From positions 1-64,000 of the forward strand of contig DATMAN010000090.1 of the NCBI GenBank assembly GCA_035560005.1: a stretch of 64,000 nt of DNA, written 5' to 3'. The notes beneath the pieces were generated by a model. That model had not been told where the DNA came from. It saw nothing but the letters and a program-made list of their open reading frames with translations, and did not search any database. Within the stretch, counting starts at the first letter, position 1, and the number at the start of each line of letters is the position of its first letter. Shown here one piece after another: positions 46,863-58,891 of the stretch. The translations under genes were made by a program, and so were the position numbers. The stretch comes from Burkholderiales bacterium (GTDB lineage Bacteria; Pseudomonadota; Gammaproteobacteria; Burkholderiales; Eutrophovitaceae).

Positions 46863-49739
46863 TCAAGGACGCAGGACGACGGCGCGCAGGTTGCCGGTGA
46901 CGTTGAGGCTGTTCTGCAGCCGCTGGGCCTGCGAGCGCAGTTCGACGTGGACCCGACCGCTGACGTCCTGATCGGGCGCGATGTCGAAGCTGCCGCTGGC
47001 ATTGAGGATGCCGGCGGCGAGGCGGACGTTGCGGTACTGATAGCGGCCGTTGGCGATCAACAGCGACCCGGACAGCTCTTCGAACTTGGTCGACCCGCCC
47101 TGCGTACCCTGCCGTCCCACCTGCAGCGCCCGCACGAGGTCGACCCCGTCCAGGTTACCGCGGCGCACGAGGAAGCTCGTCTCTACGCGTGGCGCATCGA
47201 ACAGGATGGCCAGGCGATCGGATTGCAGCGCGAAGCGACCCTTGCCTTCGGCTTCTCCGGAGCTGCGCGCGTCCTTGGTGAACGCCGCGAGCAGCGACTC
47301 GGTCTGGATCCGGGCGAACTCGAAATCGCCATCGGCGCGCCAGCCACCGCTCCACGATACCCGGGCGCTGCCCTTGACCGCGCCGCCGTACAACCGGGCA
47401 TCGAATTCCGCGAGCTCAAGCGCTTCTGTGCTCGCCACACCTTTCGCCGCGAAATCCGTGAACTCCACCGGCGGACCGATCGGCGGCGTCCATCCCTTGC
47501 CCGAAATCGAGACGTCCATCCGGCCGTCTTTCGGCACGATCTCGACCGTGAGCTTGTTGTCCACGGTGGCGATGTCGGTCCTCGCGATGGTTCCGTCCGG
47601 CCTCAACTGCATGTGGACGTTGAGTGCAGGCAAGGCAATGTCGCGCATGCCCACCTTCGCGCCGCGCAATACCAGCCGACCGATCTGCACCGACTTGTCC
47701 GCCAGTGCCGCATCCAGCCAGCCGGGCAGACGCTGCAGGACTTGCTCCTCCATGTTGACGCCCTCGACCTCGACCTCCCGGACGACCTTGACCTCGCCAA
47801 ACAGCGAAGCGAGTTCTGGTGAGAGGCGCACCTTCGCGATCTTGACGTCCTGGGTGGTCCCTATGGCCACGCTTTCCAGGGTCAGATCGAATCCGGACAG
47901 GGCGGACATTCGCACCGACTGGATCGAGACCGGTTCCTTGATGTGCCCGGAGGCCAGTTTTTCGATCGCCGGAATGTAGCCGCTCAGCGGCATGAACTCG
48001 ATGACCGCCAGCGCCAGTCCGATCACGATCGCCAGGCCGATCGCCACGCCCTTGAAGCGGTCGATCGGCGAACGGACCTTGCCTTGTCTTTTCAGCGCCT
48101 CGAGCTCGCGGCGCTTGCGTTCGGCTTCCTCGGCTGCCTTGCGCTTGCGCGCCAGCTCTTCCTCCCGCGCCCGCCGGTCAGCCTCGATCCTGGCTTCCTC
48201 GGCGCGCCGCTTTTCCTCCGCTTCGCGCTTCTTGCGCTCCTCTTCTTCCTGGATCTTGCGCTGGTATTCCTCCTCGCGCCGGCGCTCGCGTGCCCGGCGC
48301 TCTTCTTCCTCGCGCTGCATGCGGGCGCGGATTTCGGCCTCTTCCGCCGCACGCCGCTCGGCCTCGAGCCGCGCCTCTTCTTCGCGCTGCGCACGCTCCA
48401 TGGCGAGCCGCGCCTGCTCGGCCTCGAACTGCTGGCGCGCCTCCTCTTCCGCGCGCTTGCGCAGAGCTTCCTGCTGGCGCTCGAACTCCGCCATGAAATC
48501 GACGCTTGCCGGTTCGCCCACCGGCGGCAGATCGATCTCTTGCACTTCCACGGCGGGGAACGGCACGTCTTCTTCCCGCCGCCTGCGCTCCTCTTCGTGC
48601 CGGCGGGCATCCTCCTCGGCCCGGCGACGATCTTCTTCTGCGCGACGGCGATCTTCTTCCCGGCGTCGCGCTTCCTCTTCCTCGCGGCGCCTGCGCTCCT
48701 CTTCTTCCCTGCGGCGTCGTTCCTCCTCTTCGCGCCGCCTGCGCTCTTCTTCTTCTCGGCGCAGGCGCTCCTCTTCCTCGCGGCGCTTGCGCTCTTCCTC
48801 TTCCCGCCTTCTGCGTTCCTCCTCTTCGCGCCGTTTGCGTTCTTCTTCCTCGCGGCGCATACGCTCTTCCTCCTCGCGTCTGCGTCGCTCCTCCTCTTCG
48901 CGCTTCCTGCGTTCTTCTTCCTCGCGGCGCTTGCGTTCGGCTTCTTCGCGCTGCTTGCGTGCCTGCTCCTCGCGCCTGCGGCGCTCCTCCTCTTCGCGCC
49001 GCCTGCGCTCTTCTTCCTCGCGGCGGCGGCGATCGTCCTCTTCCCGCTTCTTGCGCTCGACCTCGTCTCTCGCGGCCTGCTCGGCGGCCTCCCGCGCTTT
49101 GCGCTCGGCCTCTTCCTTGGCCTTCGCCTCCAGCGCCTTGCGTTCGGCTTCGAGGACCTTGGACAGATCGCGCGTGGTCCTGGCCATCTCTTCGGCTTGG
49201 CGCCGGGCCTTGCGTTCCGTTTCCTCCCGCATCTTGAGCGCGGCCGCCTCCTTCGCCTTGCGCTCGGCCTCGATCTTTGCCAGCCTGGCCGCTTCCTCGC
49301 GCGCGGCCTGCGCGGCGGCTTCCTTCTTCTTGCGCTCTTCTTCCTCCCGTTTGCGCCGGGCTTCGGCCTCGGCTCTCATGCGCTCGGCTTCCTCGCGCGC
49401 GCGCATCTCGGTCAGACTGCTCTGGTAGATCTTCTTGCCAGGAGGAAGCGACTGGGTGAAGTCCAGATCGTCGACGTAGGAGGTGTCGGCCGGCGGGACG
49501 GTGCTGATGCCGCCGGAGAGCGCGGCGAATTCCTTGATGTAGCCGCCCTCCTCAAGCTGCCGAATGCAGCGCGAGACTTCCGCGTCGGACAGCTTGGCTT
49601 TGACGGCGAGGTCGGCGACGCTGGATTTGCCGTCGATCAGCGTGAGGACCCGGACCAGCTCGCGCGAAAGCTTGCCGCCCTTGTTCTTGATCTCCAAGAC
49701 TCCTTTTCCGGTCTTGGAGTAGATCGTCTTCAGGTCCAT
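46863..49739 (-). CDS. AsmA-like membrane protein with long ER/K-type charged helix and N-terminal winged-helix domain
   Basis: This 958-residue protein has four parts. Residues 1-75 look like a winged helix (VLTLIDGKSSVADLAVKAKL, SDAEVSRCIRQLEEGGYIKE). Residues about 107-390 are almost purely E, R, K and A; inside, 240-358 repeats an 8-residue unit of the E4R4 type, matching the ER/K motif of single alpha-helices. A Pro-rich break (391-416, VPFPAVEVQ, DLPPVGEP) precedes a second charged helix (417-556). A single membrane helix lies at 564-585 (GVAIGLAIVIGLALAVIEF). The rest (to 958) has AsmA-like features in its C terminus (GNASGS-type strand repeats, LSGSLLIANGRYQYRN, SFDIAPDQDVSGRVHVELRS). 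Topology: cytoplasmic N terminus, periplasmic AsmA-like part. No exact relative is recalled; function unknown. Confidence 0.8.
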   Translation of the reverse strand: MDLKTIYSKTGKGVLEIKNKGGKLSRELVRVLTLIDGKSSVADLAVKAKLSDAEVSRCIRQLEEGGYIKEFAALSGGISTVPPADTSYVDDLDFTQSLPPGKKIYQSSLTEMRAREEAERMRAEAEARRKREEEERKKKEAAAQAAREEAARLAKIEAERKAKEAAALKMREETERKARRQAEEMARTTRDLSKVLEAERKALEAKAKEEAERKAREAAEQAARDEVERKKREEDDRRRREEEERRRREEEERRRREEQARKQREEAERKRREEEERRKREEEERRRREEEERMRREEEERKRREEEERRRREEEERKRREEEERLRREEEERRRREEEERRRREEEERRRREEEEARRREEDRRRAEEDRRRAEEDARRHEEERRRREEDVPFPAVEVQEIDLPPVGEPASVDFMAEFERQQEALRKRAEEEARQQFEAEQARLAMERAQREEEARLEAERRAAEEAEIRARMQREEEERRARERRREEEYQRKIQEEEERKKREAEEKRRAEEARIEADRRAREEELARKRKAAEEAERKRRELEALKRQGKVRSPIDRFKGVAIGLAIVIGLALAVIEFMPLSGYIPAIEKLASGHIKEPVSIQSVRMSALSGFDLTLESVAIGTTQDVKIAKVRLSPELASLFGEVKVVREVEVEGVNMEEQVLQRLPGWLDAALADKSVQIGRLVLRGAKVGMRDIALPALNVHMQLRPDGTIARTDIATVDNKLTVEIVPKDGRMDVSISGKGWTPPIGPPVEFTDFAAKGVASTEALELAEFDARLYGGAVKGSARVSWSGGWRADGDFEFARIQTESLLAAFTKDARSSGEAEGKGRFALQSDRLAILFDAPRVETSFLVRRGNLDGVDLVRALQVGRQGTQGGSTKFEELSGSLLIANGRYQYRNVRLAAGILNASGSFDIAPDQDVSGRVHVELRSQAQRLQNSLNVTGNLRAVVLRP
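48666..49022 (-). repeat. 24-base tandem repeat encoding E4R4-type units
   Basis: Within the AsmA-like gene the reverse strand repeats a 24-base unit with the sense REEEERRR (variants REEEERKR, REEEERMR, REEEERLR), about fifteen units. The nucleotide copies differ from each other at many third positions, so length variation between strains is possible but the units are not identical. Confidence 0.8.
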
Positions 49740-56530: not shown

Positions 56531-57862
56531 TCAGTCCTTGTCTTCGATCTTCGCGCCTGCCGCGCCGCGCGCGAACGCGATGCGAACCCGCTCGCCGAGC
56601 GCCAGTCGGGCGGCGTCGCGCACGATTTCGCCCTGCGGCGTCGTGACAATGCTGTAGCCCCGCTCCAGCACCGCGCGCGGACTGAGGTGCTCGAGGTGCG
56701 CGCGGATCGCCAGCAGCCGCTGCCCCCGGCGCTCCAGTTGCAACCGAGTCGAGGCGCACAGGCGCTCGCCAAGGCCCCGGCATCGCTGAGCAAGGCCTGG
56801 CAGATCCGGTCTGGCTGCACCCAGGCGGGCCGCGATCGCCTGCACCCGATGCGCGGCGACGTCCAAACGGTGGCGGATCGCGCCGCCCAACCGGGCGCGT
56901 AGATGCTGCAAGTGCTCGCTGCCCGCGACGATCAGGTTCGCCGGATGGACCAGCCGCTTGCCAAGGTAATCCACCGATTGCATGCGGCTTTCGATGGCGT
57001 GCCGCAGGCCGCGGGCCAGCCGGCGGCGCAGCGCGTCGAGCCGCTGCGAGAGCTCGGCGCGATCCGGGCTGGCGGCCGCGGCGGCCGCGGTGGGGGTGGG
57101 CGCACGCAGATCGGCGACGAAATCGGCGATGGTGAAGTCCGTCTCGTGGCCGATGCCCGTGATCACCGGCATCGGGCATTGGGCGATGGCCCGGGCGACG
57201 ACTTCCTCGTTATAGGCCCACAGATCTTCCACGCTGCCTCCGCCTCGGCAGACGAGCAGTACATCGACCTCGGCCCGCGCAGCGGCCGTGCGGATGGCTT
57301 GCGCGATTCGCTCCGCCGAGCCTTCTCCCTGGACGGGCGCCGGATAGACCACGACCGCGATGGCGGGCATCCTGCGGCCGAGCGTCGTGAGCACGTCGCG
57401 CAAGGCTGCGGCCGCCGGCGAGGTCACCACCCCGATCGAATGCGGGAACGCGGGAATTCGCCGCTTGCGCTCCTGGGCGAACAGTCCCTCCAGTTCGAGC
57501 TTGGACTTCAGCCGCTCGAAGGCCTCGAACAGCAGGCCGATTCCGGCGCGTCGGATCGTTTCGACATTGAGCTGAAATTCGCCGCGCGGCTCGTAGAGCG
57601 TGGGCAGCGCCCGCACCTCGACCTGCATGCCGTTCGCAAGCGCGAAGTCGATCAGCGCGGCTTTGTGGCGGAAGAAGACGCAGCGCACCTGGGCCTGCGC
57701 GTCCTTGAGCGAGAAATAGCAGTGGCCGGAAGCGGCGCGCGTGAAGTTGGAGATCTCGCCCGCCACCCATACGAGCGGGAAGCCGGACTCGACCAGTTCC
57801 CTGGCGCGTCTGTTGAGTTCGCCAACCGAGATAACCGGCGCGGTGATCAGTGCTTCATTCAC
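56531..57862 (-). CDS. xseA: Exodeoxyribonuclease VII large subunit
   Basis: The 443-residue protein has the XseA OB-fold start (VISVGELNRRARELVESGFP, VAGEISNFTRAASGHCYFSL) and the catalytic region VTSPAAAALRDVLTTLGRRM and CRGGGSVEDLWAYNEEVVAR and GIGHETDFTIADFVADLRAP. With XseB it degrades single-stranded DNA. It is divergent from exbB across the AT-rich gap. Confidence 0.95.
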   Translation of the reverse strand: MNEALITAPVISVGELNRRARELVESGFPLVWVAGEISNFTRAASGHCYFSLKDAQAQVRCVFFRHKAALIDFALANGMQVEVRALPTLYEPRGEFQLNVETIRRAGIGLLFEAFERLKSKLELEGLFAQERKRRIPAFPHSIGVVTSPAAAALRDVLTTLGRRMPAIAVVVYPAPVQGEGSAERIAQAIRTAAARAEVDVLLVCRGGGSVEDLWAYNEEVVARAIAQCPMPVITGIGHETDFTIADFVADLRAPTPTAAAAAASPDRAELSQRLDALRRRLARGLRHAIESRMQSVDYLGKRLVHPANLIVAGSEHLQHLRARLGGAIRHRLDVAAHRVQAIAARLGAARPDLPGLAQRCRGLGERLCASTRLQLERRGQRLLAIRAHLEHLSPRAVLERGYSIVTTPQGEIVRDAARLALGERVRIAFARGAAGAKIEDKD

Positions 57863-58279
57863 GCGCCGATTCTACGTCGCGCGCGCAGCCCAATCGTGCA
57901 TGCAGCCCGCAGGGCGCTGCACGACCTGACTCCCACGAGGGGCCGTCCACAGCGGTCATGAAGACGTAACGTTGTCGCCTCGAAAGCCGCGCCATGGCTA
58001 GGGGGTGTTTCGCAAGCCATTGAAGTATAAAAACAATATTCGTCGCACAAAAAATCAGCGCGATCAGAAAAATTGTTGCGGAAAGGCCACTTATCGCGCC
58101 TTTGCGCGGCTTGCCCACATAGTTATCCACAACAACTGTGGACAAATTCAAGGCGCTTGAACAGGCCTCTTTCTGCCCGTCAAGAGGCATTCAAGCGCGA
58201 GCGTGGTCTTCTTGCTGGCGTGTGCCCGGCAGTTTGTTTAAAGTGCGCGCTTTCTCAAAGGAGCCTTCGGAGCGCGCGC
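57863..58279. other. 417-base gap with AT-rich stretch and DnaA-box-like pair
   Basis: Between xseA and exbB there is no gene I accept. Bases about 58010-58080 are only about one-third G+C, unlike the surroundings. TTATCCACA at 58123-58131 is a perfect DnaA box, and TGTGGACAA at 58137-58145 is an inverted near-match, with a weaker TTGCCCACA at 58111-58119. See findings. Confidence 0.6.
58123..58145. promoter_or_regulatory. Inverted pair of DnaA-box-like sites
   Basis: TTATCCACA (58123-58131), five bases, then TGTGGACAA (58137-58145, inverted TTGTCCACA). Consistent with DnaA binding; purpose unknown. Confidence 0.5.
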
Positions 58280-58891
58280 GTGATCGAAATCATCCAGGCC
58301 GCAGGCTGGCCGATCTGGCCCATCATCCTGTGCTCGGTCATCGCGATCGGCATCATCGGCGAGCGCTTCTATTCGCTGCGCCAGAACGTCGTCGCGCCGC
58401 GCGATGTCCTTCCCCGGGTCATTCAGGAGTATCGCCAGAGCGGCGTCAGCAGCGAAATGCTGGGCAACCTCGCTGCCGGCTCGCTGCTCGGCAAGGTGCT
58501 CGCGGCCGGGCTGAAGAACGTCAAGAGCCCGCGCGAGGTCATGAAGGAATCGATCGAGGAGGCGGGCCGCGCGGCGGCGCACGAACTCGACCGTTTTCTG
58601 ACCACGCTCGGAACCATCGCCACCATGGCCCCGTTGCTGGGGCTGCTCGGCACCATCATCGGCATGATCGAGATCTTCGGCGCATCCGCGCCGAGCGGCA
58701 TGACCGATCCGGCAGCGCTTGCGCACGGCATTTCCATCGCGCTCTACAATGCCGCCTTCGGCATCATCGTGGCGGTACCCAGCCTGGTTTTTTATCGGCA
58801 TTTCCGCGCCAAGGCCGAGTCTCTGGTCGTGGAGATGGAGCTGCAGGCCATCAAGATGGTGGAGATCATCCATGGTGAACGCAGCGTCTGA
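58280..58891 (+). CDS. exbB: ExbB/TolQ-type proton channel protein
   Basis: The 203-residue protein has three membrane segments and the ExbB signature LGTIATMAPLLGLLGTIIGM and IALYNAAFGIIVAVPSLVFY. With ExbD it forms the proton-driven motor of the inner membrane. Start GTG at 58280, with CGGAG 7 bases upstream. Followed by exbD after 60 bases. Confidence 0.9.
   Translation: MIEIIQAAGWPIWPIILCSVIAIGIIGERFYSLRQNVVAPRDVLPRVIQEYRQSGVSSEMLGNLAAGSLLGKVLAAGLKNVKSPREVMKESIEEAGRAAAHELDRFLTTLGTIATMAPLLGLLGTIIGMIEIFGASAPSGMTDPAALAHGISIALYNAAFGIIVAVPSLVFYRHFRAKAESLVVEMELQAIKMVEIIHGERSV

Follow-up and report, generated by a model that had tools for sequence, protein, structure and literature searches.

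A candidate DARS-type DnaA-reactivating element beside xseA in a Burkholderiales bacterium and its relatives

The gap between xseA and exbB (positions 57863 to 58279) in a 64,000-nucleotide stretch of a Burkholderiales genome (contig DATMAN010000090.1; the whole stretch is called the window below) appears to carry a DARS-type DnaA-reactivating element, a reading that we favour with some reserve. The best reading is that of a DARS2-type element at a new location that also has a datA-like loop of box, IHF site and box. Judged by this anatomy, from which its activity is predicted, the element probably helps to set the time of chromosome copying.

The perfect DnaA box with an inverted partner 5 bases away, described in an earlier note on this DNA, was found again: TTATCCACA (58123..58131, + strand, 0 mismatches) is the equivalent of DnaA box II, and TTGTCCACA (58137..58145, - strand, 1 mismatch), inverted and head to head with it, that of box I. 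The nearby stretch of about one-third G+C was verified by direct count (20 of 60 bases at 58020-58079, 33%). Both flanking genes were identified correctly before. xseA, the exonuclease VII large subunit gene that the module accompanies (56531..57862, -), matches Pfam PF02601 (E 7e-106), and exbB, a neighbour outside the module (58280..58891, +), matches PF01618 (E 2e-29). dnaA is indeed outside the window, on another contig (C68) of the same genome. Missed in the earlier note were a third box and outlying far-box, IHF-like and Fis-like positions. The third box, TTGCCCACA (58111..58119, +, 2 mismatches), is the equivalent of box III, and its offset equals that of box III in E. coli DARS1 and DARS2. 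With box II at position 0, the boxes stand at -12, 0 and +14, III(+)-12-II(+)-14-I(-), which is the geometry of a DARS three-box core. The far box position CCGTCCACA (57943..57951, +, 3 mismatches) lies 180 bp before box II and is worn here, but good in many relatives. The IHF-like site CTTCAATGGCTTG (58013..58025, -) has 2 mismatches to WATCAANNNNTTR and lies at -110 with an A/T-rich tract alongside, and the Fis-like site GCACAAAAAATCAGC (58045..58059) has 3 mismatches to GNTYAAWWWTTRANC and lies at -78. The window thus holds a sound core with worn accessory sites. Besides dnaA, the same genome has three genes of the HU/IHF family and one for a Fis relative (39% identity over 76 residues).

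The arrangement of the boxes, unlike their number, is unusual for the window and is not due to chance. At ≤1 mismatch, 4 DnaA boxes were observed in the window and 2.6 expected, and exact boxes showed no enrichment genome-wide (8, versus 11 for a reversed control pattern). For the arrangement, a trio pattern of 30 bases was used (box end, 3 bases, box, 5 bases, inverted box). It matched the window once, at 58116-58145, with 0 mismatches, and gave no match in 100 shuffles even at 3 mismatches. When all six elements were scored at their expected offsets, the window had 11 mismatches, versus 25 for the best of 30 simulated 64-kb sequences. Two unrelated observations were made in passing. Exact copies of TTATCCACA in the genome all lie on the forward strand of contigs (8/8, 0 reverse), as do 10 of the 11 control matches, possibly a quirk of the tool. 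A 958-residue open frame in the window (46863-49739, -) has a long E/R/K-rich repeat region, with periods of 21 to 96 bases at 48571-49058 and an AT skew down to -0.94.

For conservation analysis, loci were fetched with upstream DNA for 80 exbB relatives from titled genome records (taxa among them Nitrosomonas, Nitrosospira, Thiobacillus, Gallionella, Azospira, Zoogloea and Noviherbaspirillum) and 30 further relatives, giving 104 distinct loci; related genomes are not independent, and locus counts overstate the number of events. The central box (≤1 mismatch) was kept in 84 of the 89 distinct loci with xseA beside exbB, and the inverted box (≤2 mismatches) was also present in 73 of those 84. 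Where exbB had no xseA beside it, the central box was absent in 12 of 15 loci, one of which has only 42 bases upstream, and present in 3, among them L102, where the contig ends 447 bases upstream. In genomes in which xseA and exbB lie apart, the core stays with xseA (G097, G058, G035). A DnaA-regulated promoter of exbB, one of the readings previously proposed, is not supported, given this association with xseA and the 12 of 15 exbB loci without it. Box I was lost at 11 of the 84 xseA-linked loci, including five (L092, L095, L098, L109, L112) of a small-genome genus in the window's family; this suggests either that far box, box III and box II may serve a function of their own there, or decay. 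In one relative, six trio-like sites occur in series between exbB and xseA (G071:C1:249535-250477).

The anatomy of the module was measured in 85 dereplicated loci having the central box, which was taken as position 0 and was an exact TTATCCACA in 78. An inverted box (≤2 mismatches) was found at +14 in 74 loci and a direct box III (≤2 mismatches) at -12 in 57, versus 0.14 and 0.18 under a first-order Markov null; no other box offset within 60 bp occurred more than 3 times. On the minus strand at -113 to -106, the IHF consensus was present in 57/85 loci at ≤1 mismatch (null 0.6) and in 73/85 at ≤2 (null 4.9). The Fis consensus (≤2 mismatches) was found at -79 to -77 in 38/85; both kinds of site are consensus matches in A/T-rich DNA. 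The minimum of mean G+C (0.235 at -100 to -80) adjoins the IHF position. A far box on the plus strand at -192 to -170, near -178, was detected in 41/85 loci at ≤1 mismatch (null 0.24) and in 58/85 at ≤2 (null 3.4). IHF, Fis and far-box sites of the relatives all lie on the box III side of the core. Far-box distances formed clusters near 178 and near 188-190. Periods between 9.5 and 11.5 could not be told apart, and helical phasing is not claimed. Boxes I and II varied without compensation (83 positions versus 0), which points to protein binding rather than RNA pairing. An RNA element or hairpin was likewise rejected on this ground and by the lack of an Rfam match in the window. The search for an intrinsic terminator gave one weak match, no more than in shuffles, and a small ORF over the gap (57855-58190, -) matched no Pfam family. 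Of what the earlier note had offered for this site, a functional DnaA-binding locus is supported by the deep conservation, and its origin and exbB promoter versions are not.

The trio was found at ≤3 mismatches in 88 of 100 order-level genomes (3 reversed-pattern control hits in all) and, in a class-wide sample of 229 genomes, in 186 at ≤2 mismatches (0 control hits). In the 63 genomes for which locations were listed, it lay next to xseA in 39, before priA in 21, at either place in 45, at both in 15 and only elsewhere in 18. Among the listed places the core pointed away from xseA in 45/45 and towards priA in 25/25. The module before priA recurs in Betaproteobacteria and in other Gammaproteobacteria, with one orientation per gene; in the class sample, priA adjoined the core in 9 of 28 loci examined, 27 of which came from outside the window's order. 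Among 11 hemE-priA copies, which were selected by the pattern, IHF was found at about -110 in 10 and a far box TTATGCACA at -175 to -188 in 10. In the hemE-priA gap of the window's own genome (G000:C2, L232, 898 and 1072), TTATGCACA and TTATCCACA lie 174 bp apart before priA. This second module of the genome keeps far box, box III and box II, and the inverted box I is absent. Four of six other priA gaps likewise keep far box, III and II without box I, and the remaining two (G031 and G078) have no box at all. No such core was found at E. coli priA. Counting the copy before priA, many of these bacteria would possess two such modules, the number found in E. coli.

Trios of other kinds were also encountered. 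A second trio of the same genome, at C25:53965, lacks both far box and IHF site at the offsets of the module and lies between what we take to be a Sel1-repeat gene and a transposase-like gene. A further kind (L145, L146, L148, L149, L142, L139, L166), in the window's family and a nearby one, has a near-identical core and varying neighbour genes, with neither a far box nor an IHF site where these usually lie. A search for a plasmid copy of the module gave no match.

For comparison, the boxes of E. coli DARS1 (bioD-uvrB gap, MG1655 sequence) stand at -12, 0 and, inverted, +14, which is the same core geometry, and its box II is identical. Unlike the module, DARS1 shows neither an IHF match (≤1 mismatch) nor a box near -178 in the stretch scanned. 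E. coli DARS2 (rppH-mutH region) has in common with the module the core geometry, the involvement of Fis and, on the side of box III, IHF sites plus one more box. Two DARS-type trios lie 316 bp apart in the DARS2 region (L116, 1952-1986 and 1636-1670). The trio at 1636-1670 was taken as the DARS2 core on account of its two IHF matches. They are separated by 3 bp, as published, and agree with the order of parts (core, IBS, Fis, box V) given in PMC4245941 and PMC8682772, which describe the IHF, Fis and box V parts of DARS2. Relative to this core, IHF matches fall at -99 and -83 and a perfect box lies at -197, each of them on the side of box III. DARS2 differs from the module in its neighbour genes, in its IHF positions (-99/-83 versus about -110) and in its far box (-197 inverted versus about -178 direct). 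It also differs in the Fis consensus, which in the module lies between core and IHF. The review PMC5742627 names equal spacing at DARS1 and DARS2, with opposite orientation of box I, as their common feature. A DARS by definition promotes the release of ADP from DnaA and increases ATP-DnaA; in DARS2, IHF sites lie beside the core and the Fis sites are required for activity.

By analogy with E. coli DARS, ADP-DnaA would bind head to head on boxes I and II. A bend made by IHF would bring DnaA at the far box to the core, and Fis would tune the element with growth. ADP would then be released and apo-DnaA would reload ATP, which would raise the capacity to initiate. Several observations count against such a DARS reading. 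The window's far box, IHF site and Fis site are weak. Box I, central to the DARS model, is absent at the 11 xseA-linked loci noted above and at the priA site of the window's genome and of four others. The far box has an orientation unlike that of E. coli box V, and the Fis consensus is not beyond IHF. Position relative to dnaA is not conserved between families. Finally, the spacing of far box, IHF and box III fits E. coli datA, which inactivates DnaA.

That last point leads to a datA-type element, in which looping by IHF would join the far box head to tail with boxes III and II and promote hydrolysis of ATP-DnaA. The distances of about 68 and 98 bp match those between box 2, IBS and box 3 of datA (65 and 97 bp), where box, IHF site and box have the same orientations. 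Far box, III and II of the window also share one direction around the IHF position, and some loci keep just these three boxes without box I. In datA, which lowers ATP-DnaA, the essential boxes all have one direction with IHF between them (PMC5742627), whereas here the conserved box I is inverted, head to head at the exact DARS distance in 74/85 loci, and the datA-like loop is additional to it. E. coli datA lacks the combination of an inverted box at +14 and a direct box at -12, and no DARS trio was found in the 3 kb around it. We therefore regard a datA-type element as unlikely, and the module looks like a DARS core with a datA-like loop. A promoter under DnaA control for the adjacent repair or restart gene, xseA in the window and priA in other places, would account for a module that accompanies these genes and not exbB. 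Its opposite orientations to xseA and priA leave no shared promoter geometry and are a poor fit, and no sigma-70-like promoter, the single type covered, turned up in a simple scan of the gap; such a promoter seems distinctly improbable. Passive titration of DnaA without nucleotide exchange, also raised by the earlier note, would explain the kept high-affinity box II. It needs neither the fixed 12/14 spacing nor IHF and Fis sites, leaves these and the inverted box unexplained, and is given very little weight.

A chromosomal origin of replication, to which the paired boxes next to an A/T-rich tract had pointed, has next to no probability. The module resembles a bacterial oriC in its DnaA boxes and in an A/T-rich tract with an IHF site. 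It differs in lying away from dnaA (on contig C68 here, far in complete relatives) and, in two complete relatives (G031 and G069), away from the skew minimum. Skew was sampled in three complete relatives, the genome under study being in 107 contigs. In G031 it turned from negative to positive between 1220 and 1275 kb, at dnaA (1271.9 kb), and was still positive through the module site at 1583 kb, 311 kb from dnaA. In G069 the module site (1641 kb) lies just past a positive-to-negative switch (1340-1500 kb), and the opposite switch is at 2960-3200 kb, some way from dnaA. G003 had no clear switch in the sampled skew. Measured from dnaA towards the opposite pole, the site was 17 to 98% of the way along in eight complete relatives. 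Fractions of the half-chromosome, worked out by hand, were 0.98 (G003), 0.34 (G006), 0.55 (G023), 0.17 (G031), 0.92 (G069), 0.53 (G037), 0.50 (G083) and 0.52 (G058), so that a conserved distance from dnaA was rejected. In the genome under study, a single perfect DnaA box lies in the short gap before dnaA (L003, G000:C68), and the position of its own origin is not obvious.

The DARS-type reading can be extended, tentatively and with considerable doubt, to a composite DnaA switch that predates the arrangement seen in E. coli. Such a switch would combine a DARS core with an IHF loop like that of datA, and it could be flipped between inactivating and reactivating DnaA. It would stand before priA throughout the Gammaproteobacteria (broad sense) and would have been copied to xseA in Betaproteobacteria, with E. 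coli datA and DARS2 as later specialisations.

A literature search, which covered few subscription papers, found no paper on DARS at exbB, xseA or priA. DARS control of DnaA has been described from E. coli and close relatives; PMC8682772 compares seven E. coli-proximal species. If the modules work as their anatomy suggests, a far larger group of bacteria would share timed reactivation of DnaA as a general trait, and the copies next to xseA and priA would be fixed addresses at which DnaA reactivation may be tested in many bacteria.
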